The notes below the pieces were generated by a model. It had not been told where the DNA came from and did not search any database. It saw only the letters and a list, made by a program, of their open reading frames with translations. A program made the translations under genes and the position numbers. From positions 1 to 42,746 of the IMG/VR virus record IMGVR_UViG_3300017782_000044: 42,746 nt of DNA. The stretch is one strand, 5' to 3'. This DNA is from a virus. Below, one piece after another: positions 26,104 to 34,189 of the stretch (its first letter is position 1; the number at the start of each line of letters is the position of its first letter).

Positions 26104-26329
26104 CAATGATGTTCGGGTCATCTAACCATGCCTCATACATTGCTCCCCTGCGGGTAATCGAATCTATTTCTGCACATCTCAATGTGCCATCTCCTGAGCA
26201 GTATTTTTTGTACTGCCATTCTACTCTCTCTTTTGTAACGATGTACTCATCTGATAATTTCTCAGTCAACATCTCTTCGTCAAAAGCCATCCCGCACAAG
26301 TGGCAGGTCATCTGTAATTTCATGCTCAT
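26087..26329 (-). CDS. Small Cys-containing protein
   Basis: 80 residues, with CHLCG near the start and three later Cys, ending DACDA. Probably a zinc-binding protein. A TTTTGTAACG copy (read VTKE on this strand) lies within it at 26231. Leaderless from its own promoter. Confidence 0.55.
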   Translation of the reverse strand: MSMKLQMTCHLCGMAFDEEMLTEKLSDEYIVTKERVEWQYKKYCSGDGTLRCAEIDSITRRGAMYEAWLDDPNIIDACDA

Positions 26330-26349
26330 ATCTCTCCATCTCCTATTTT

Positions 26350-26383
26350 CTTAATAAAGGTAGTCATTTCTAATCACAAGCGT
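26350..26383 (-). promoter_or_regulatory. ACGCTTGTGAT-type promoter
   Basis: Minus strand: ACGCTTGTGAT (26373-26383), 14 nt, TTTATTAAG (26350-26358), 25 nt to ATG 26329. The element overlaps the end (CHACD) of the upstream gene. Confidence 0.75.
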
Positions 26384-26828
26384 GGCATATCACTCTAGCA
26401 GGGTTTTGTAACACATCTTTTGGATGGATTTTAGATGCCTGAATCGCAGGTATATTTGCCCCACAAGTACCTTGACAGATTCCTTCTGTGCCTCTCAACA
26501 TTGTCCTGACTGCTAATACTGAAATCGCTTCTGAATGCCATGTGACTTTCGGGATTTTGATTGTCACGATTGGAATATTAGTTTTGACCTGAATGTTCTT
26601 TCTCATGCCAATTCTTGCATGACTGCAATTGACATCGTGAGGACTAGTTTTCAAGGTGTCACAACAATCTCGATAGCCGTGTTTGAATCGGCCATTGCTA
26701 TCTCCTGTCCTTGCTTTTGTAACGCCGGTCTTACTACCGCCTTTCTTACCTCTCGCTGATGCCACCGGACACTTGCCTCGATGAACCACGCCATTGCATT
26801 TTTTGTATCTGCACGGAAACTTGCCCAT
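26370..26828 (-). CDS. Cys-rich, basic zinc-binding protein
   Basis: 152 residues. The N-terminus CRYKKCNGVVHRGKC is a CxxxxC...H..C zinc knuckle, followed by a Gly/Lys/Arg-rich basic region, CC and C pairs in the middle and CQGTC/CHAC at the end. Likely a nucleic-acid binding regulator; it is the gene that faces the divergent control region, and a candidate for recognising the TTTTGTAACR sites that flank it. TATA box TTCATATAG 25 nt upstream. Confidence 0.55.
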   Translation of the reverse strand: MGKFPCRYKKCNGVVHRGKCPVASARGKKGGSKTGVTKARTGDSNGRFKHGYRDCCDTLKTSPHDVNCSHARIGMRKNIQVKTNIPIVTIKIPKVTWHSEAISVLAVRTMLRGTEGICQGTCGANIPAIQASKIHPKDVLQNPARVICHACD

Positions 26829-26848
26829 GTACGTGCGAGCGTATACAA

Positions 26849-26857
26849 CTATATGAA
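26849..26857 (-). promoter_or_regulatory. TATA box of the leftward gene at the divergent region
   Basis: Minus-strand TTCATATAG centred 25 nt before ATG 26828. In place of ACGCTTG there is a CGTTACAAAA half-site only 7 nt upstream, i.e. a TTTTGTAACG site in the opposite relative orientation, which may repress or activate. Confidence 0.6.
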
Positions 26858-27488
26858 GTAGACCTTTTGTAACGATTTAGTTTTGTAACGATAACTTAGT
26901 TTTGTGCCGAAAGTAAAGTTTTGTAACGGAGTTATTTTTTGGGTAAATATATTCAACGTAACAAAAGAAAAATGTTACAAAACGGGTAAGTAGATATAGA
27001 CCTTCATAAAGGCCATTTACGTGCGTTCTGAGGCACTTGAAGGGGTCGCTAGTACGTTGACACCTTTTTCTTCATAAAGTGCCTAGAAACACCCTTCAAA
27101 CGATTTCACGCTTGCGATTGGTATTTAAGGTTTCTTTTGTAACGCTTTTGTAACGGCACTATTCTTACTTAGTGCTTTTTGTAACACTATGTAACTGTAT
27201 TGCATTAAGTATATTTTCTGCACCGGCTTTACTTTTTGTTATTAAATGTATCTCTTGCACTTACTTTCTTTCTAACACTAACTTTCTCTTAGATACCTAG
27301 TGCTTTAATGTCAGTTGCTTTCTCTTCTGCATCGAGTGTTGGTTACAAAAGCAAGTGTAATCTCTACACTAGGTTTACTCTCTCTCTCTTAGTGTAAAAA
27401 AAACACCTAAAGTTTTGTAACGGCTCTATCCACACTAGGTAACTTTTGTAACAGTCGGTGCAAAAAGTAAACCGCACAATATAATTAA

Positions 27489-27530
27489 TGTTACAAAAGG
27501 TTTTGTAACGGAAGGGGTTACTTCATATAG
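27489..27530 (+). promoter_or_regulatory. Palindrome promoter, cassette 1
   Basis: TGTTACAAAA (27489-27498), 2 nt, TTTTGTAACG (27501-27510), 11 nt, TTCATATAG (27522-27530), 26 nt from box centre to ATG 27552. CAATATAA lies 4 nt upstream of the palindrome. Confidence 0.85.
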
Positions 27531-27551
27531 TAAGGGCGATGAGGTGGGGGT

Positions 27552-27875
27552 ATGAGTTGGAAGGAGACAAAAGCCCGAAGCGAATTACTAGGAGAAGCGA
27601 TACACAAGGAAACGATTGAAGCGGGGTTATGCGGTAAGAAGTGGATGACCTGTATTGAGGGTTCACCGGCTAACGGTAGAGCCTACCGAATCGCCTTAGT
27701 ATGTCCTAAGACCTACGCACACTTCAACCACCCCGCAACCGGTGCAGGTGGCGATTATCTAGGCTGGACTCGTAGAGAGTGCAACCTTTCACTTCAAAGA
27801 ATCCTTAGAGGGGTTCAGTTTTGTAACATGACCAAGAAGACGGCGAGGGCTAGATATGGCAGATTCAACAAGTAG
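27552..27875 (+). CDS. Cassette 1: unknown 107-residue basic protein
   Basis: MSWKETKARSELLGEA..., with two Cys in the first half, a Gly/Tyr-rich middle and a basic end. One TTTTGTAACA copy near the end encodes FCN. No family recognised. Leaderless. Confidence 0.6.
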   Translation: MSWKETKARSELLGEAIHKETIEAGLCGKKWMTCIEGSPANGRAYRIALVCPKTYAHFNHPATGAGGDYLGWTRRECNLSLQRILRGVQFCNMTKKTARARYGRFNK

Positions 27876-27897
27876 ATGTTTTGTAACGGGTTGTTGC

Positions 27898-27978
27898 ATG
27901 AGTGCAACCGAGTTGAACGAATTGTTTTGTAACACCGACTTCAAGCATTGCGGGTATTGCGGGGTGATACTGAGATAG
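27898..27978 (+). CDS. 26-residue zinc-knuckle-like micro-ORF
   Basis: MSATELNELFCNTDFKHCGYCG...; C11, H17, C18 and C21 could bind zinc. FCN is encoded by a TTTTGTAACA copy. No separate promoter; it would be translated from the cassette 1 transcript. Short, so uncertain. Confidence 0.35.
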   Translation: MSATELNELFCNTDFKHCGYCGVILR

Positions 27979-27989
27979 TTTTGTAACGG

Positions 27990-28004
27990 TTCTCTCTCTC
28001 TCTT
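27990..28004 (+). terminator. Pyrimidine tract after cassette 1
   Basis: TTCTCTCTCTCTCTT between two TTTTGTAACG copies. Similar CT tracts follow every gene of the array, and pyrimidine-rich tracts are typical archaeal terminators. Confidence 0.4.
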
Positions 28005-28049
28005 GAGAGTTTTGTAACGAAACTTTTGTAACACTTGCAACATATTCAA

Positions 28050-28091
28050 CGTTACAAAACCTTTTGTAACGGCATAACCAACTATATATAG
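28050..28091 (+). promoter_or_regulatory. Palindrome promoter, cassette 2
   Basis: CGTTACAAAA (28050-28059), CC, TTTTGTAACG (28062-28071), 11 nt, TATATATAG (28083-28091), 26 nt to ATG 28113. CATATT lies 4 nt before the palindrome. Confidence 0.85.
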
Positions 28092-28112
28092 GGGGGGCGT
28101 GTACGACTAATC

Positions 28113-28505
28113 ATGTTAGAAGTTGGAGTGCATGGTAACTTACCCGAAATCGCAGAACAATTTGAGGAAGGTCAAATTGAGTTTTGTAACAGTTTAGGAT
28201 TTGGCGTTTTGGCCGGAATGGTCGCCGGATTCAGCGAGGTCAAAAATCCCGAAGAGTTTTGTAACAGGGTTCTAGTCAGTAATCAGATATCCAAGATATT
28301 CAAGAAAATGCCTTCATGGTTCGACGTAGAGTTTTGTAACACCCTCAAGGCAACCGATTGGTTTTGTAACGGTGGTCGCAAGACCCATGAGCAATGGTTG
28401 GATTGGGTCGCAGAAAATCACCCCGATGTCAATTTGAGAGTCACACGTTTTGTAACGGTTGAGCAGGATTCCTATACCAAGATGGGGGTGCTTGCTAACA
28501 AGTAG
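28113..28505 (+). CDS. Cassette 2: unknown 130-residue protein with four FCN tripeptides
   Basis: Acidic/aromatic helical protein. Five TTTTGTAAC copies lie within it: four read FCN (IEFCNSL, EEFCNRV, VEFCNTL, DWFCNGG) and one, at 28448, reads FVT in the other frame. The motif therefore supplies all four cysteines. No family recognised. Leaderless. Confidence 0.6.
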   Translation: MLEVGVHGNLPEIAEQFEEGQIEFCNSLGFGVLAGMVAGFSEVKNPEEFCNRVLVSNQISKIFKKMPSWFDVEFCNTLKATDWFCNGGRKTHEQWLDWVAENHPDVNLRVTRFVTVEQDSYTKMGVLANK

Positions 28506-28560
28506 TTTTGTAACGGATGCGTTCTCTCTCTTTACTTTTGTAACGATAGTTTTGTAACGC

Positions 28561-28573
28561 TCTCTCTCTCTCT
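28561..28573 (+). terminator. Pyrimidine tract after cassette 2
   Basis: A 13-nt CT repeat, with another TTCTCTCTCTTT at 28522, each flanked by TTTTGTAACR copies. Confidence 0.4.
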
Positions 28574-28617
28574 AAAGTTTTGTAACAGAAGTTTTGTAAC
28601 GGCTACAATATATCCAA

Positions 28618-28659
28618 CGTTACAAAAGGTTTTGTAACACCACCCAATCATTCATAAGC
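28618..28659 (+). promoter_or_regulatory. Palindrome promoter, cassette 3
   Basis: CGTTACAAAA (28618-28627), GG, TTTTGTAACA (28630-28639), 11 nt, TTCATAAGC (28651-28659), 26 nt to ATG 28681. CAATATAT lies 4 nt before it. Confidence 0.85.
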
Positions 28660-28680
28660 AAATTGCAAGTAGAACGAATC

Positions 28681-29109
28681 ATGCCAACCGAAGCGACAGG
28701 CCGACGAGAATTGCTAGCGAACGTGAACCGTATCAGGGCGGAGTTATCCCGAACATGGTACGATGAGGAAAAGGACAGGATGAGAACATCCACTCCCGAC
28801 ATCAACCTCATGCTGAACACCGGCATGGGCTACCAAGACCCAAGTGTAAAAATCAAAGTCAACATGACCGGACTCAACAACTACCTTAACCAACTAGACA
28901 AAGAATTAGAAATATTTTGTAACAGGGCACGAAAGTGGATGAGCAACGTTCGATACGAGTTTGCTATGTATCACGGAAACTACTCAGGGTCATCCATTGA
29001 CATCAAGACTGACTTCAAGTTTGACGACCACCGCCTATCGAAAGACGGGCTTTGCTACGGCCACATTGACCAAGACACAGGTGAAGAGGTGATTTGGGAA
29101 AAGAATTGA
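28681..29109 (+). CDS. Cassette 3: unknown 142-residue protein
   Basis: Start chosen at ATG 28681 by the promoter register; a TTG at 28663 would be upstream of the predicted transcript start region. The protein is helical in the first 90 residues and beta-rich after; one FCN. No family recognised. Confidence 0.6.
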   Translation: MPTEATGRRELLANVNRIRAELSRTWYDEEKDRMRTSTPDINLMLNTGMGYQDPSVKIKVNMTGLNNYLNQLDKELEIFCNRARKWMSNVRYEFAMYHGNYSGSSIDIKTDFKFDDHRLSKDGLCYGHIDQDTGEEVIWEKN

Positions 29110-29162
29110 GTATAGTATAGAGAGGGTTTTGTAACGGTCTTTTGTAACGGACTTTTGTAACA

Positions 29163-29187
29163 CCCTCTCTCTCTCTTTTCTCTCTCT
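29163..29187 (+). terminator. Pyrimidine tract after cassette 3
   Basis: A 25-nt C/T-only run starting just after a TTTTGTAACA copy, followed by more TTTTGTAACG copies. Confidence 0.4.
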
Positions 29188-29253
29188 TTTGTAACGTTCT
29201 TTTGTAACGAATGTTTTGTAACGGAAAAGTTTTGTAACGGACAACATATCAAC

Positions 29254-29295
29254 CGTAACAAAAGGTTTTGTAACAGAAACGATTGGTTCATATAG
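29254..29295 (+). promoter_or_regulatory. Palindrome promoter, cassette 4
   Basis: CGTAACAAAA (29254-29263), GG, TTTTGTAACA (29266-29275), 11 nt, TTCATATAG (29287-29295), 26 nt to ATG 29317. CAACATAT lies 4 nt before it. Confidence 0.85.
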
Positions 29296-29316
29296 TATAG
29301 CGAATCAGGGGGGTAC

Positions 29317-29652
29317 ATGGCACAAGGACTGAAAATCCAAACCAATGGCACAACCGAAATTGTGTCCATCAACGGCCTTGCAGATATGCAGGGTGTAGTT
29401 GGTGGATATATCGAGCGAGTATGCTCAGTAGATAGCACTCAATTTGAGGCTACCTTCGATAACGTAGAGATGTGGGCGAATGAGGAAGGACTCATTCATT
29501 CACTACCTATCAACATGAAGGCTACTGTACTGCGTGATATGGTACTAGGCATTCCTAGTTACTATGCTATCGTGGGTGACGTACTACTAACCGCATCGAA
29601 AGAGGGAGCAGATGTTCCACAGGAGTTAATTGATATACTATGCAAAGACTAA
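29317..29652 (+). CDS. Cassette 4: DUF3846-like protein
   Basis: 111 residues. GLADMQGVVGGYIERVCSV, ANEEGLIHSLPINMKAT and YYAIVGDVLL follow the DUF3846 pattern (lq..vgG.ie.v...nEeg.l..lp.N..A......i.GdvlV). DUF3846 proteins occur on phages and mobile elements and are of unknown function. The one cassette gene with a family assignment. Confidence 0.6.
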   Translation: MAQGLKIQTNGTTEIVSINGLADMQGVVGGYIERVCSVDSTQFEATFDNVEMWANEEGLIHSLPINMKATVLRDMVLGIPSYYAIVGDVLLTASKEGADVPQELIDILCKD

Positions 29653-29663
29653 GTTTTGTAACA

Positions 29664-29792
29664 CTCGCAGGGTGAGTTGCATCCCAACAAGTCCTGCGGG
29701 TGGTAAGTTTTGTAACGCAACCTGCGAGAACGCTTTTGTAGTTGTTGTGCATCGGACTTTTGTAACGGATTAGTCAACTTACCGCCCGTAGG
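29664..29792. other. Interlocking inverted repeats, possible structured RNA
   Basis: CTCGCAGG...TTGC (29664-29680) pairs with GCAACCTGCGAG (29717-29728), and CCTGCGGGTGGTAAG (29693-29707) matches the reverse complement of 29778-29792 at 13 of 15 positions. The two pairings interlock (the second pair's left arm is in the first pair's loop), so pseudoknot or alternative folds are possible. It follows cassette 4. Confidence 0.45.
29672..29773 (+). CDS. Possible 33-residue ORF in cassette 4 trailer
   Basis: GTG start, VSCIPTSPAGGKFCN..., with three Cys and two TTTTGTAAC copies read as FCN and FVT. It overlaps the inverted repeats and has no good ribosome site. Weak. Confidence 0.25.
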   Translation: MSCIPTSPAGGKFCNATCENAFVVVVHRTFVTD

Positions 29793-29810
29793 CAACCTTT
29801 TGTAACGGTT

Positions 29811-29824
29811 GTTCTCTCTCTTTG
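29811..29824 (+). terminator. Pyrimidine tract before cassette 5
   Basis: GTTCTCTCTCTTTG between TTTTGTAACG copies, in the position of the other array CT tracts. Confidence 0.35.
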
Positions 29825-29873
29825 TTTTGTAACGTTTTTGTTTGTTTTGTAACGTTTTTTACAATAATTCGCA

Positions 29874-29915
29874 CGTTACAAATAGTTTTGTAACGGAATC
29901 GCTACCTTTATTAAG
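29874..29915 (+). promoter_or_regulatory. Palindrome promoter, cassette 5
   Basis: CGTTACAAAT (29874-29883), AG, TTTTGTAACG (29886-29895), 11 nt, TTTATTAAG (29907-29915), 26 nt to ATG 29937. CAATAATT lies 4 nt before it. Confidence 0.85.
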
Positions 29916-29936
29916 GGGATGATGTTAGCACTAAAC

Positions 29937-30074
29937 ATGACAACAACCTACGAATTGGAGTGTTACTTTTGTAACGAATGTATTGAAATTGAAGTACCTT
30001 GCGGTGGCAAGTTGGGTACTATCGAAAATGGTGTTTGCGGTGCTTGCACCGAAGGGGGTAAAACCCTATGGTGA
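29937..30074 (+). CDS. Cassette 5a: 45-residue zinc-ribbon protein
   Basis: MTTTYELECYFCNECIEIE... with CYFCNEC (9-15), C22 and CGAC (34-37). One of the zinc ligands is provided by a TTTTGTAACG copy. An in-frame ATG at 29922 is closer to the TATA box than the 26-nt register allows, so 29937 is preferred. Confidence 0.55.
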   Translation: MTTTYELECYFCNECIEIEVPCGGKLGTIENGVCGACTEGGKTLW

Positions 30075-30184
30075 GTGAAACTTTTGTAACACTTTACTTC
30101 CCATGTTTTGTAACGGGTGAGCCTGACGCTAATGTTCTACAAATCTTTTGTAACGCTCCACCACCACCGGAAGATGAAGCATGA
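30068..30184 (+). CDS. Cassette 5b: 38-residue overlapping ORF
   Basis: MVSETFVTLYFPC..., starting inside the end of 5a (ATGGTGA, 7-nt overlap) and ending in a Pro-rich acidic tail. It reads three TTTTGTAAC copies, two as FVT and one as FCN. Coupled translation with 5a is likely. Confidence 0.4.
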   Translation: MVSETFVTLYFPCFVTGEPDANVLQIFCNAPPPPEDEA

Positions 30185-30190
30185 GTTTTG

Positions 30191-30215
30191 TAACGGCAGT
30201 ATCTCTCTTCTTTTC
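30191..30215 (+). terminator. Pyrimidine-rich tract after cassette 5
   Basis: TATCTCTCTTCTTTTC-type run preceding TTTTGTAACG copies. Confidence 0.35.
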
Positions 30216-30281
30216 TTTTGTAACGGCTTTCTCTTTTGTAACGATAGTTTTGTAACGGTAGTATAATTACAACATATTGTA

Positions 30282-30323
30282 TGTAACAAAATGTTTTGTA
30301 ACAGGAGAGGCAGGTTCATAAAG
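30282..30323 (+). promoter_or_regulatory. Palindrome promoter, cassette 6
   Basis: TGTAACAAAA (30282-30291), TG, TTTTGTAACA (30294-30303), 11 nt, TTCATAAAG (30315-30323), 26 nt to ATG 30345. CAACATAT lies 4 nt before it. Confidence 0.85.
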
Positions 30324-30344
30324 GAGAAGTCGTTGGATAGAAAC

Positions 30345-30737
30345 ATGGAATCAGATGCACGATACCACCCTGACTTTGCCACCGACCACCTGAAGCGAGG
30401 CACGAAAACCGTTGCCCGCAAAATCCGTTCCTTCCTCAACGAGAAGGCTCACGGCGGGCTACTTGCCGACGGAGATTGGCACTCCGGTTGCAGTTTGTTT
30501 TGTAACGATTTTTCGTATGCCTTCGGTGGCGGCGACCGACCTATCCAATCACGTGATGCTCACGGCGAATTGTTCCTAGTTTTCGACGGTGGACTCCTGT
30601 ACGACTTCCTTTCACCAAACGGTGACGCTGAGTACATGGGTCACGGTTGGGAGTGGCCTTTTACACAGTTTTGTAACAGGCTCGGCTACGACGTTGAGTG
30701 CGTGACCTCATATTGCTTGTCGGTTACTAAGCAGTAA
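30345..30737 (+). CDS. Cassette 6: unknown 130-residue protein
   Basis: Start at ATG 30345 by promoter register; the longer frame from 30291 would begin inside the promoter palindrome. Asp/His/Gly-rich with SGCSLFCNDFSYAFGGG and WEWPFTQFCNRLGY; Cys mostly come from the motif. The G/D-rich middle could bind metal. No family recognised. Confidence 0.6.
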   Translation: MESDARYHPDFATDHLKRGTKTVARKIRSFLNEKAHGGLLADGDWHSGCSLFCNDFSYAFGGGDRPIQSRDAHGELFLVFDGGLLYDFLSPNGDAEYMGHGWEWPFTQFCNRLGYDVECVTSYCLSVTKQ

Positions 30738-30764
30738 GTTTTGTAACGGGGCGGGAGTTTTTTC

Positions 30765-30790
30765 TCTCGCCCCTCTCTCTCTCTTTTTCT
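30765..30790 (+). terminator. Pyrimidine tract after cassette 6
   Basis: CTCTCGCCCCTCTCTCTCTC followed by TTTTTC, the longest such tract in the array. Confidence 0.45.
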
Positions 30791-30847
30791 TTTGTAACGA
30801 TTTCTTTTGTAACGATTTCTTTTGTAACGGTTGTGCAATAAATAAAA

Positions 30848-30889
30848 CGTAACAAAATGTTTTGTAACGGCAGATATATTGTAAAAATT
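30848..30889 (+). promoter_or_regulatory. Orphan palindrome promoter
   Basis: CGTAACAAAA (30848-30857), TG, TTTTGTAACG (30860-30869), 11 nt, then GTAAAAATT where the TATA box should be. No ORF starts 26 nt later; instead there is a GC-rich hairpin. A decayed cassette or a regulator-only site. Confidence 0.5.
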
Positions 30890-30919
30890 AGGGGTTTGCC
30901 CCACCCGCCTTGCGGCGGG
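30890..30919. terminator. GC-rich hairpins at a convergent junction
   Basis: GGGG-TTTG-CCCC (30891-30902) and a perfect CCCGCC-TTGC-GGCGGG stem (30904-30919) between the last + cassette and the first leftward gene; likely a bidirectional transcription end. Confidence 0.5.
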
Positions 30920-30934
30920 CGAGGACTTTGGCTT

Positions 30935-31141
30935 TCAGTTATTGTAGCAGTTACCGCACCACTTCTCGGATGCTCCACCGTTGTATGTACGGACTCGCAC
31001 CCAATACATATTGTTACGGCTTACCATTTTGCCACAATGCTCACATCGCATTTCGGGGGCGTAGTGTAGGCCTGTCGGCTTACCGTTCCCGTCAACTGCA
31101 ATGGCTTCATTTATTTCATTCCATTCATTTTCGCTTATCAC
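30935..31141 (-). CDS. 68-residue zinc-binding protein
   Basis: MISENEWNEINEAIA..., with CEHC (33-36) and CGNC (62-65). GTG start with GGAGTGA upstream; the ORF before it ends in that same GGAGTGA. Probable zinc ribbon of unknown partner. Confidence 0.6.
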   Translation of the reverse strand: MISENEWNEINEAIAVDGNGKPTGLHYAPEMRCEHCGKMVSRNNMYWVRVRTYNGGASEKWCGNCYNN

Positions 31142-31148
31142 TTTTGTA

Positions 31149-31253
31149 TCACTCCTTGTCGTATGTGTATTCGACTATTACTGTACCAAATCGGTCAATG
31201 TACCATGAGTAAAACCGAAATACTATTTCGCCCCACATTGTTCGCTTCATCAT
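31149..31253 (-). CDS. 34-residue microprotein
   Basis: MMKRTMWGEIVFRFYSW..., Tyr/Trp-rich and beta-like. Its start overlaps the stop of the upstream gene (ATGA) and its last codons provide the ribosome site of the next gene, so it is embedded in an operon. Function unknown. Confidence 0.45.
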   Translation of the reverse strand: MMKRTMWGEIVFRFYSWYIDRFGTVIVEYTYDKE

Positions 31254-32152
31254 ATCACCCCCTGCTTTTTCAATTGTTGAATCATTTTTGCGTTGTACTT
31301 GATGTCGTTAGAGTAGTTATCCGTAAACCACTTGCGAAGCACGTTGACTTCTGTGTGAAAGTCTATGTCCGGCCTCAATGCCCATGCTATCGTCGTTATT
31401 AGTGGTTGGTTAGTACCGTCTAGGTGTGGTACAACCTGCTTCGATTTGAATTGATAGATGTAGAGTTGGTCTTGGTTGACTGCCTCATTGTGCATCATAG
31501 GGCGAGTGTCCTTGAAAGATTCTAACACCGGTGCGTCTGCCATGTCCTGACCTGCCTCTAGTTGTTGGCGTGGATAATTTTCTATCGTTCTGACTGCGGT
31601 GAGTTTTTCGCCTAGCCAATCAGGGTAGTTTTGTAACGGTACGCATTCCTCGATTGGGAACACGTGAGCCAACTCGACATCGAAGTATCTGTGTCCTGTT
31701 TCGGGGTCGTTGCGGTTAATCTGCCCGATGGTCGGGTCTACGATGTAATGCTCAGTCTGTGCGACCACGTGACCGTCATACCCTGTTGCTCCTGTTGAGT
31801 AGTAAGCAGGGTTGGTTCTAGGCTCAGGGTACTGAGGGTCGTTTCCATCGTGACCCTTGTGCCATAGGGAAAACTCTCGGCCTGTGCTACCATAGCCGGA
31901 CACATCACAACAAACCGCCTTCGCTCTTTTTAGAGTAGTTTTGTAACGCTTGTTGTATAGGATGGTGAAGAGCATCGAATCTGAGATGCAACTCCCTGCT
32001 CCTGTGAATCCTCTAGCGTGGGTGTTGAAGTTGATGATGTCGTTTAGCACATCCTTGATAGCCCGTTGCTCTAGGTGTAGGTTTTGTTTTGTAACGGTTG
32101 CCTTCTTCGCCTTTGGCTTGCGGTTCTGCCTTGCTTGCTTCTTGAATCCCAT
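31250..32152 (-). CDS. Possible transglutaminase/papain-like fold protein
   Basis: 300 residues from the ATG at 32152 (TGATG with the upstream stop). After a basic N-terminus come GSCISDSMLFTILY (Cys55), GYDGHVVAQ (His128) and HYIVDPTIG (Asp139), the Cys-His-Asp order and local context of transglutaminase-like or papain-fold enzymes. The C-terminal half is unassigned. If active it could be a protease, peptidase or crosslinking enzyme. Three TTTTGTAACG copies lie in it. Confidence 0.55.
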   Translation of the reverse strand: MGFKKQARQNRKPKAKKATVTKQNLHLEQRAIKDVLNDIINFNTHARGFTGAGSCISDSMLFTILYNKRYKTTLKRAKAVCCDVSGYGSTGREFSLWHKGHDGNDPQYPEPRTNPAYYSTGATGYDGHVVAQTEHYIVDPTIGQINRNDPETGHRYFDVELAHVFPIEECVPLQNYPDWLGEKLTAVRTIENYPRQQLEAGQDMADAPVLESFKDTRPMMHNEAVNQDQLYIYQFKSKQVVPHLDGTNQPLITTIAWALRPDIDFHTEVNVLRKWFTDNYSNDIKYNAKMIQQLKKQGVI

Positions 32153-32727
32153 CAGTACCACACCCCGAACACGTTGGTTACTTCTCGCCTGTCCTCACCC
32201 TTGACAGGTGCGGTGTCAACTTTAACGCTTCCGAAGAAGTCTGTTGCGTGGATGTGTGCAACTCCTGCTTCCCTGTCTATCGTGATAAATACTAGATAGT
32301 CAGGCATCTGACCTCTAAGCGATAGTTGTTTTGTAACGGTTGCCGACATCTCGCCGTTAACTTTTGTAACGAAGTCTGATACGGTGTAGCCCGATTTCCT
32401 GATGATAGATGTTCTTTGCCTGACCATGTACCCCTTCTTTCGCATTGCCCTGATAAAGTCGGTTGTGAAGTGTACCCAATGGATAGCACCTCTAACGCCG
32501 AACCAATGAGCCGTAGCGGTTAGGCATGGCGACCCTCTAAAGTCGTGGTTAATGTATTCGGCTGATAGAGTGGTTATCCTCTTCGCTCTTTGTTTTGTAA
32601 CGGGGTTCACTTTGCTATGTGGTATTTGATTCCCGCTCGGTCTGCTCCTTGCCGGTAGGGTAGCCCCTACGATTTGAAACATTTCATCCTCAAGTTTTGT
32701 AACGGTTGTGTATTCTTTGTCTGTCAT
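32152..32727 (-). CDS. Unknown 191-residue protein
   Basis: Basic, with five TTTTGTAACG copies on the opposite strand, most read as VTK (TVTKLED, PVTKQRA, FVTKVNG, TVTKQLS). The C-terminal part alternates strands (DYLVFITIDREAGVAHIHA). No family recognised. AATAGGAG-type or AGGAGTGA ribosome site before the ATG. Confidence 0.55.
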   Translation of the reverse strand: MTDKEYTTVTKLEDEMFQIVGATLPARSRPSGNQIPHSKVNPVTKQRAKRITTLSAEYINHDFRGSPCLTATAHWFGVRGAIHWVHFTTDFIRAMRKKGYMVRQRTSIIRKSGYTVSDFVTKVNGEMSATVTKQLSLRGQMPDYLVFITIDREAGVAHIHATDFFGSVKVDTAPVKGEDRREVTNVFGVWY

Positions 32728-32772
32728 ATTTATTCACTCCTATTAGTTTTGTAACGGTTGTTATATTGTAGG

Positions 32773-32793
32773 TCAAGGGGGGCTTTCGCCCCC
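32773..32793. terminator. Perfect GGGGGGC/GCCCCCC hairpin
   Basis: A 7-bp GC stem with a TTTC loop downstream of the 32808 gene and upstream of the next one; no T-run follows on the coding strand, so it may be a transcript stabiliser or terminator. Confidence 0.5.
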
Positions 32794-32807
32794 CCTGCCG
32801 TTCCGTC

Positions 32808-33638
32808 TTACTCAGTCACCTCACGGTCAAAGAGATTTATTCCCCTGCTTTGAATGGTAACTCCCCTAGCGGTCATGTTGTCGGTGTCTGACTCATCGAA
32901 GGCAATGGTTGCAAAGGTTCTGAAAACCTTGTCCTTGATGTGGCACTCTAGACCAATCATACCGGAGCGGAATGACCCGCCTTCTACGTTGTATGAACCC
33001 CATGATGGCTTTTCGCCCCTGACCCTTCGGCGGGATGTCTGCCACTTCTCGGCGTTATTCTGAGCCTTGTCTGAGCCACCTCGACGGGTTAGGGTAGAGT
33101 TACCCCTGAACACTAATTCACCGTTCTCGATTCCGAAAACCGGCATTCGTGCTTTGGGTTCGTACCTGTTGGCTACGTCGTTCATTGTTACGATTGTGAT
33201 ATCATACGCTTCGATATCTACGGATTGACCGCATCGTGTTTCTGTTGGGTGGCCGCCGTTGCAAGTGAATGTCTTAGGGTGGATTAGACCACACTCACAG
33301 ATAGGGCATAGCATTGATTCTTTGCTAGTCAATTCAAGGCTTGTGTGGTGGCCTTTCCTGCTTGTTCTGCTCTTGTCGTCAGACTCGATGTTCATAGTGC
33401 TTCGGCGGTACTTTGTAACCTCTAGGGTCATCGCCTTCTTTCCTGCCGTGATGATGTCGTCGAATGACTCAACTCTCACGATTGGAAGATTTGAGAGGTC
33501 GGCTCTCCTGCCGTATGTGGTGGCTCTCTTTGGGGTCGGTAGGTCTGACCTGAGATTTACTCTCTCACCGAGAGTCACCCTCTCAACCCTACTGACATCT
33601 TCGGCATCGAAGATGTCTCCCGCAGGGGCATTCGTCAT
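32808..33638 (-). CDS. Unknown zinc-finger protein
   Basis: 276 residues from the ATG at 33638, which has AGGAG about 12 nt before it (a frame start at 33668 is less likely). The middle has CPICECG and, after 12-20 residues, CNGG and RCGQ, a probable zinc site; the rest is beta-rich and basic. Lacks TTTTGTAAC copies although both neighbours have them. A capsid-accessory or DNA-binding role is possible; unknown. Confidence 0.55.
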   Translation of the reverse strand: MTNAPAGDIFDAEDVSRVERVTLGERVNLRSDLPTPKRATTYGRRADLSNLPIVRVESFDDIITAGKKAMTLEVTKYRRSTMNIESDDKSRTSRKGHHTSLELTSKESMLCPICECGLIHPKTFTCNGGHPTETRCGQSVDIEAYDITIVTMNDVANRYEPKARMPVFGIENGELVFRGNSTLTRRGGSDKAQNNAEKWQTSRRRVRGEKPSWGSYNVEGGSFRSGMIGLECHIKDKVFRTFATIAFDESDTDNMTARGVTIQSRGINLFDREVTE

Positions 33639-33817
33639 ATTATCATAAACTCCTATTGCTTCACGCATAAATATGGCTACTGAGGCCGTCGGATATAGTC
33701 TTTTGTAACGGCTCTATCTCTCAAAAACGTTGTACTGCGACGGTGCAAAAACTACACCGGCTCTTATGGCCTGTATTGCCTACCCCCTCAATCAATTTTT
33801 ATATTTTTTTTCAAAAA
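33639..33817. other. Intergenic region with GTTGTACTGCGA element
   Basis: Holds the last TTTTGTAACG (33701), an ACGTTGTACTGCGA (33733) shared with the 20.7-kb element and, inverted, the 37.4-kb element, GGTGCAAAAACTACACCG, and a T/A-rich stretch before the next gene. It is the right boundary of the TTTTGTAACR territory. Confidence 0.45.
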
Positions 33818-34189
33818 TTATTTTTGGGGTTTTGAATGCCATCGCTCTAGGTAGGACTCCGGCACATCAAAGTTTTTCCTAGCCTTGTATTGCTTCGGGG
33901 AAGTAGTAAGTGGCTTTCTAGACCTTACCTTGTTTTCTGCCACGTAAGGCCGTAGGATAGTACCGACACGAATCTTACTCAATGGACTCCAATGTGGCGA
34001 TATGTACTTCTTGCCTTCGTAGGCTATCTGTTCTGCCGTCATCCAATCTTCTGCATCGTTCAGGATTTTCTCTATCACTAACTTATACACTTGCCTTTTC
34101 TTCATAGGCCCATGTCGCCTAACCAAAGGGTCTTGTTTGTTAAACTTCTTACCTGTTATTCTACTTCTAGTAGCATCTAATTTACTCAT
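33818..34189 (-). CDS. Winged-helix-like basic protein
   Basis: 123 residues. A basic N-terminus, then QVYKLVIEKILNDAEDWMTAEQIAYEG and a later VGTILRPYVAENKV form a winged-helix-like unit; the tail is basic. Directly downstream of large terminase with an overlapping start (ATGA-type). Could be a packaging factor or regulator; a small terminase role is possible given position. Confidence 0.55.
   Translation of the reverse strand: MSKLDATRSRITGKKFNKQDPLVRRHGPMKKRQVYKLVIEKILNDAEDWMTAEQIAYEGKKYISPHWSPLSKIRVGTILRPYVAENKVRSRKPLTTSPKQYKARKNFDVPESYLERWHSKPQK

Follow-up and report, generated by a model that had tools for sequence, protein, structure and literature searches.

The zone between positions 26,231 and 33,709 of the window (the whole 42,746-nucleotide stretch of viral DNA analysed here) appears, judging from sequence, to be a regulon of single-gene cassettes controlled by a virus-encoded, sequence-specific DNA-binding protein, with virus-specific operators and dispersed sites that resemble stoperators; we put the probability of this reading at about 60%. 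The window derives from an uncultured marine virus, probably one infecting archaea. Its terminase has no relatives above ~28% identity in named phages and none in species genomes. Records of related viruses reach 60–74 kb, all of which may be fragments, while the genomes of the Magrovirales / Apasviridae, viruses of Poseidoniales, measure 90–110 kb (PMC12999244).

An earlier note on this DNA had described six + strand units with identical promoter spacing, and this description was borne out. All seven palindromes of the form GTWACAAAW-NN-TTTTGTAACR were recovered by pattern match (7/7; the reversed pattern gave 0 matches), and at 6/6 cassette promoters the palindrome is centred 52.5 nt before the ATG, with the TATA box centred ~26 nt 5′ of the ATG. 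The core promoter of each cassette is of the leaderless archaeal type and is preceded at a fixed distance by the palindrome, which is made up of two 9-bp half-sites, one inverted and one direct copy of the 9-mer TTTTGTAAC. A conserved regulatory sequence with BRE/TATA is in this way common to unrelated small single genes; in the fifth cassette another ATG lies upstream of the 45-aa frame. When related contigs were checked, the spacing was found to be kept (52.5 in L007 and 51.5–52.5 in L008), while lineages beyond these two prefer their own, such as 62.5 nt, seen five times in L054. A seventh promoter, thought to lack a gene (30848), turns out to be the right-hand end repeat of the array and not an orphan promoter, because the empty allele in L007 shows that it bounds cassette 6. 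An eighth, partial promoter proposed at 26949–26999 does exist as a partial unit, but one consisting of two reversed arms.

Table 1. Features of the cassette zone and neighbouring genes in the window
Feature	Position	Strand	Basis
Zone of 71 dispersed half-sites, S-TTTTGTAAC-R	26231..33709	+	
m152, cysteine-rich, left array edge, conserved in relatives; second-choice reader	26370..26828	−	
Half-site directly upstream of m152 TATA box	26865..26873	+	
Partial unit, two reversed arms	26958..26982	−	
Cassette 1 operator, palindromic, inverted + direct half-site	27490..27509	+	Pattern match; centre 52.5 nt before ATG 27552
Cassette gene 1, 107 aa; homologue in L008 (48%)	27552..27875	+	
Cassette 2 operator, palindromic	28051..28070	+	Pattern match, spacing
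Cassette gene 2, 130 aa; homologue in L021/L022 (34%)	28113..28505	+	
Cassette 3 operator, palindromic	28619..28638	+	Pattern match, spacing
Cassette gene 3, 142 aa; L007 and some word-less viruses have homologues	28681..29109	+	
Cassette 4 operator, palindromic	29255..29274	+	Pattern match, spacing
Cassette gene 4, 111 aa, DUF3846	29317..29652	+	PF12957 E 2e-13; phrog_3777 E 1.5e-17
Cassette 5 operator, palindromic; left breakpoint of L007 gene replacement	29875..29894	+	Pattern match, L007 comparison
Cassette gene 5, 45 aa, with CxxC pairs; L007 has another gene here	29937..30074	+	
Cassette 6 operator, palindromic; left repeat of 566-bp unit absent from L007	30283..30302	+	Pattern match, L007 comparison
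Complete cassette-6 unit missing from L007	30303..30868	+	DNA alignment
Cassette gene 6, 130 aa; homologues in L008 (66%) and L054 (47%); absent here in L007	30345..30737	+	
Gene-less palindrome, identical to 30283–30302; right repeat bounding cassette 6	30849..30868	+	Single L007 copy joins both outer flanks
p303, Cys/His/Asp peptidase-like by eye; half-sites inside	31250..32161	−	
p191, Cys/His/Asp peptidase-like by eye; four half-sites inside	32152..32727	−	
Half-site ~20–28 nt before p191 start; kept in L007	32747..32755	+	
p286, proposed reader, zinc-ribbon-containing, 286 aa	32808..33668	−	Position, co-occurrence, co-variation with word
Half-site directly upstream of p286 TATA box; kept in L007; possible autoregulation	33701..33709	+	
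wh123, conserved winged-helix-like, next to terminase	33818..34189	−	

The earlier note had also called the cassette genes unassigned except for one DUF3846-like product, and a family match was indeed obtained for the fourth gene only; comparison with PADLOC, Pfam and PHROG gave no function for any cassette, and the PADLOC search returned no match. By analogy with the early-promoter rule of archaeal viruses (PMC11065993), it is a reasonable guess that these are early host-takeover or anti-defence genes.

The note did not cover three further features: a dispersed, oriented 9-mer, words specific to each virus, and a neighbouring gene that co-varies with them. The palindrome arms belong to a far larger set of half-sites, since TTTTGTAAC occurs 81 times in the window (75 copies on the + strand and 6 on the −) against 0.69 expected, and no shuffled sequence held more than 4. 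All but four of the + strand copies (71/75) fall within the zone, both in intergenic stretches and within genes of either direction. Half-sites stand 0–3 nt 3′ of the stop codon in most cassettes, a placement that L008 shares and that recurs in L054/L047 for a different word, and they cluster upstream of promoters as well. Their orientation follows transcription in the array genes, while the + orientation is kept inside − strand genes (m152 and 31.2–33.7 kb). The sites inside m152 and p303/p191 oppose the transcription of those genes, which is not expected of a simple stoperator that follows the direction of transcription. Cassette gene 2 contains five copies of the 9-mer, four of which read FCN. 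The half-site in gene 3 occupies the same place in L007 in another reading frame, and 4/4 of the p191 half-sites are kept there; this comparison indicates constraint on the half-sites at the level of DNA. The copy preceding the p286 TATA box would make autoregulation of that gene possible. That the word is purely an RNA motif is disfavoured by the palindromic promoter arms and by the antisense copies in − strand genes. A palindrome scan of viral contigs gave 14 matches, mostly single chance matches, with the dispersed word present only in L007 and L008.

Other related viruses have the same layout with other words (about 20), restricted to the same zone. A gene of the p286 type, the candidate reader of the word, accompanies the word-bearing zones except in L077, and is present in 0/13 word-less zones; a virus found by its PolB, G034, served as an out-of-sample case and carries a reader-type ORF alongside a new word. 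The match between reader presence and word presence can be traced to only two clean changes across the terminase tree, by themselves too few for significance. Within a tight clade (terminase at least 96% identical), a 394-aa reader type goes with TTTTGTAGGGT, a 333-aa type with TTTTGTAGGC and a 287-aa type with TTTTGTAGTC, word and reader type switching together at least four times on the terminase tree. Beyond overall relatedness, the word is correlated with the gene at the p286 position (partial Mantel r=0.42, p=0.0005; in a second clade r=0.25, p=0.017), while the comparison genes gave r=0.07 (calcineurin-like) and r=−0.22 (portal), and wh123 a weak r=0.22. As a word-determining reader wh123 was rejected, because L066 and L061 differ in their words but have identical copies of it. 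Site consensus and candidate regulator gene thus co-vary among relatives, as with stoperators, with linkage as a possible cause: reader and words lie in one segment, and the co-variation could therefore reflect co-transfer. A reading by a host transcription factor, with each virus matching the operator of its own host species, seems very improbable: the words differ between viruses whose hosts may differ, but they switch several times among near-identical terminases together with a viral gene, and no host protein is needed as an explanation.

The p286 gene adjoins wh123/terminase, and word-less viruses have no such zinc-ribbon gene. Reader proteins gave nothing credible against Pfam, PHROG or PDB sequences, and divergence between their families is too great for common ancestry to be proved; the window and L008 share a word despite p286 proteins only ~26–31% identical. 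An AlphaFold model of the window's p286 (3 sequences) was not usable (pLDDT 27). For a distant reader family (8 sequences) the N-terminal part was modelled confidently as helices and a hairpin, with no match among the PDB and viral folds searched. An unlikely alternative is that m152 reads the word, with p286 serving the same module in some other way. This gene borders the array, is conserved in relatives and co-varies with the word too; in the tight clade it is 91–95% identical among GGG-word viruses and 56–60% identical between GGG- and GGC-word viruses. However, m152 homologues, unlike p286-type genes, occur in viruses without the dispersed word (G004, G006, G013), and a search with the window's m152 found none in the second clade (G016–G020), which has words.

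We think it improbable that the words are instead a cis element for genome maintenance, such as replication origin iterons, partition or packaging sites. Their high density, their strand bias whatever the gene direction, their place between the replication genes and the terminase and the recurrence of palindromes every ~58–60 nt in G003/G005 would all suit such a role. Yet the word is missing from close relatives whose gene order is the same, so neither replication nor packaging requires it, and the palindromes keep a fixed distance from TATA boxes and ATGs, with single sites after stop codons.

Comparison with L007 bears on how the array changes. There, cassette 6 is absent, with one palindrome remaining at the junction in the DNA alignment, and cassette 5 has given way to another gene from its palindrome to the post-stop site. 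Junctions of cassette gain, loss and swapping thus fall at palindromes and post-stop sites, and because of this absence and replacement the units can be regarded as swappable cassettes, which, with the recurrent spacing in L007/L008, supports the earlier proposal of a regulon of interchangeable single-gene units. L026 and L032 are 99.6% identical up to a word copy and unrelated right after it. Such sharp ends, and the loss in L007 exactly between identical palindromes, could also mean that the words are sites of a dedicated recombinase for cassette exchange, with transcription control secondary, a reading we likewise judge improbable. Among six pairs, 18/47 alignment ends are no more than 12 nt from a word, where ~9 would be expected; this is only mildly above chance, and the test is biased, since conserved words are in any case places where alignments tend to stop. 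Moreover, ordinary homologous recombination at repeated operators gives the same pattern, no recombinase was identified near the array, and the fixed promoter spacing would be left unexplained.

If the zone is a reader-controlled cassette regulon, p286-type proteins would bind the word and, on the palindrome next to the BRE, would set the activity of all cassette promoters. Bound at dispersed and post-stop sites, the reader may act like a stoperator protein, limiting read-through between adjacent cassettes, and the repeated operators would offer short homology through which cassettes recombine. Activation is favoured by where the palindrome lies, but repression would fit the half-sites found at the promoters of p191, p286 and m152. 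Since words are particular to each virus, the reader made by a resident virus would be expected to affect related genomes only where they carry its word, leaving the rest alone. More tentatively, and with considerable doubt, the whole may form a self/non-self address code, in which a private 9–12 bp word in dozens of accessory-zone copies and a fast-changing zinc-ribbon reader control superinfection by same-word viruses, the words serve as exchange points for accessory genes, and word and reader are replaced as a module.

One close parallel is the operator/stoperator immunity of Cluster A mycobacteriophages (L5, Bxb1, TipsytheTRex), with many short, asymmetric sites in one orientation, some at promoters and most elsewhere, whose consensus varies between relatives at a distance that tracks repressor distance (PMC6550527, PMC9283540). 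The window's sites are likewise many, short, asymmetric and mostly in one orientation, but this does not follow transcription throughout, ~70 copies are packed within 7.5 kb instead of 20–30 over the genome, the promoter sites are palindromic pairs, and sites are frequent inside genes. Nor is the proposed reader recognisable as an HTH repressor of the L5 type (N-terminal HTH plus stoperator domain), and any repression is putative here. The virus is probably archaeal, and no integrase or lysogenic state is known, which counts against our best explanation. In SIRV2 and other archaeal viruses, unrelated small anti-defence genes share a near-identical TATA/BRE promoter region, thought to be bound by the virus-encoded wHTH regulator Aca8 (PMC11065993). 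The window's unrelated small single genes also share one promoter element, but this is a palindrome upstream of the core promoter with dispersed half-sites, and its word varies among close relatives. Archaeal activators usually bind upstream of BRE/TATA (PMC5937170), and the haloarchaeal GvpE/UAS system uses a 20-nt two-part element next to the BRE, where distance matters (PMC4390858). The window resembles GvpE/UAS and TFB-RF1 in this respect, but those are cellular regulators with few sites and no dispersed copies, and GvpE is leucine-zipper-like, unlike p286. The archaeal virus proteins AvtR and SvtR (ribbon-helix-helix) bind imperfect inverted repeats at several places in the viral genome and are thought to spread along DNA (PMC5569661); these are small RHH proteins of crenarchaeal viruses with few sites, and lineage-specific word switching is not described for them.

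If true, this reading would extend a stoperator-like immunity code to a group of viruses that are probably archaeal, and would supply ~20 natural word/reader pairs with which shifts in the target of a DNA-binding protein could be compared. The accessory genes of uncultured viruses, which are possibly anti-defence genes, could then be located by a rule that needs only sequence, and there would be an actual example of operator repeats that also serve as points of cassette exchange.

Six promoter units of the architecture proposed in the earlier note are present exactly as described, with seven plus-strand matches in the window to a pattern scan for GTWACAAAW-NN-TTTTGTAACR, and, in the six units that carry a gene, a TATA box ~26 nt upstream of the ATG and a distance of 52.5 nt from palindrome centre to ATG (6/6). 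The cassette genes are indeed unassigned apart from gene 4, whose match to DUF3846 was the only one to a family; defence-related models gave no matches to them. CT-rich tracts, possibly terminators, follow most of these genes and are also present in lineages with other words.

What the earlier note missed was the larger set to which these palindromes belong. The 9-mer TTTTGTAAC has 75 plus-strand copies in the window, the palindrome's direct arm being one of them, and 6 minus-strand copies, half of which are palindrome arms (expectation 0.69; shuffles never above 4). The base 3' of the word is always A or G, and the base 5' nearly always G or C. Copies are found between genes, within plus-strand genes (FCN or FVT) and within minus-strand genes (often VTK). 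Since the gene 3 site has the same position in the window and in the related contig L007 in different reading frames, and since L007 retains all four p191 sites, the constraint acts on the DNA. Most cassettes carry a site that begins 0-3 nt past the stop codon, an arrangement also seen in the relative L008 and, with a different word, in L054 and L047.

Features of the window
Feature	Positions	Strand	Remark
TTTTGTAAC-rich region	26231-33709	+	71 of the plus-strand copies
Last two palindromes	30283-30302; 30849-30868	+	identical to each other
CT-rich tracts	27816-30848
m152	26370-26828	-	cysteine-rich
Neighbour of p191	31250-32161		with p191, Cys-His-Asp peptidase look by eye
p191	32152-32727	-	adjoins the preceding protein
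p286	32808-33668	-	putative word reader
wh123	33818-34189	-	winged-helix-like
S-TAAAAGTA-W	3426-26050	-	33 copies, 0 on plus strand, 1.4 expected
ACGCTTGCGAT / ATCGCAAGCGT	~19418, 22260, 23952, 27095		near minus-strand promoters

Terminase searches yielded ~140 related viral contigs, all metagenomic and many of them fragments, the larger of which share the gene order nuclease, primase-like, PolB, clamp, clamp loader, MCM-like, DUF932, m152, zone, wh123, terminase and portal. From the archaeal-type replication genes and the TATA-to-ATG distance we infer archaeal hosts; a terminase search of named phages and species genomes found no host. Two contigs from sample 3300017783 (L020 and L132) match the window's terminase and PolB at 100% identity and probably represent the same virus population. 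Where relatives have a dispersed word, it is concentrated in the corresponding zone and its sequence differs: TTTTGTAAC in the window, L007 and L008, and elsewhere ACTTCGTAGGGCTAAA, AAATTTGTAGC, TTTGTAGTAG, ATTTGTTGGTAA, TTTTGTAGGGT, TTTTGTAGGC, TTTTGTAGTC or ATTTGTAGATAA, assignments based on few copies where zones are short. Words of a second clade are centred on CGACTA, with varying edges. The array zones of G003 and G005 have palindromes every ~58-60 nt rather than scattered half-sites.

Word and neighbouring gene change together. In a clade with terminases at least 96% identical, a 394-aa type of putative reader accompanies TTTTGTAGGGT, a 333-aa type mainly TTTTGTAGGC and a 287-aa type TTTTGTAGTC, which implies four or more such switches on the terminase tree. 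Reader and word similarity were correlated once terminase similarity was removed (r=0.42, p=0.0005; second clade, r=0.25, p=0.017); the identical test gave r=0.22 (p=0.026) for the adjacent wh123, r=0.07 for a calcineurin-like gene and r=-0.22 for portal. Sequence comparison thus favours p286 as the putative word reader, because wh123 is excluded and m152, the second choice, which also co-varies with the word, occurs in word-less viruses too. Co-transfer of reader and sites, which are physically linked, is a possible account of the co-variation. wh123 cannot set the word, since L066 and L061 share an identical wh123 and differ in word.

In the first clade, a large ORF of 240-470 aa that usually encodes a CxxC-type zinc ribbon adjoins wh123/terminase in every examined word-bearing zone except that of L077, and a reader-type ORF was found in 0 of 13 word-less zones; this presence/absence evidence is weak on its own, because the terminase tree shows only two independent changes. 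G034, which came from a PolB search instead of a terminase search, has a new word together with a reader-type ORF. Word-less zones of the second clade have no such ORF, save that of L218, which carries a long ORF on the minus strand. In L077 (word TTTTGGCCGTGA), a 356-aa neighbour without CxxC pairs, SAP-like in one stretch by eye, adjoins an m152-like gene. The reader families could not be joined by sequence comparison; structure prediction gave no usable model of p286, and the model of a distant reader family matched no fold. Genes resembling p191 also adjoin the reader in L008, G012, L068 and L070, and a peptidase of this kind might act on the putative regulator.

Cassettes move, with junctions at palindromes and post-stop sites. 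In DNA alignment, L007 lacks the entire cassette-6 unit, a single palindrome copy joining both outer flanks; its cassette 5 is a different gene, similarity stopping at the cassette-5 palindrome and restarting beside the post-stop half-site. L026 and L032, of another lineage, share 99.6% identity as far as a word copy and are unrelated past it. Across alignments in general, ends near words exceed chance only slightly, and the count is biased, so we do not claim a dedicated recombinase.

Other elements were seen. S-TAAAAGTA-W, a second word that is dispersed and oriented, lies in the replication half, within genes and shortly before start codons; it is 19:0 in L132 and in weak excess on the same strand in L136, L139 and L149. 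The ACGCTTGCGAT / ATCGCAAGCGT element also occurs in word-less relatives (L044, L045, L073, L074), and TACTGCACGATTTT has five copies downstream of terminase in each of L213, L215, L221 and L223, which lack a reader-type ORF.

The palindrome lies at a fixed distance directly upstream of BRE/TATA, where archaeal activators usually bind, as at the GvpE UAS (PMC5937170, PMC4390858). p286 and m152 also have half-sites adjoining their TATA boxes, and another lies near the p191 start, an arrangement that would suit repression and autoregulation. The dispersed and post-stop sites are similar to mycobacteriophage stoperators (PMC6550527, PMC9283540), but their orientation does not track each gene's direction, and none of the candidate readers looks like the L5-type repressor. 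In having one promoter common to unrelated small genes, the array resembles the early anti-defence genes known from other archaeal viruses (PMC11065993), a role that the cassette genes may possibly share.
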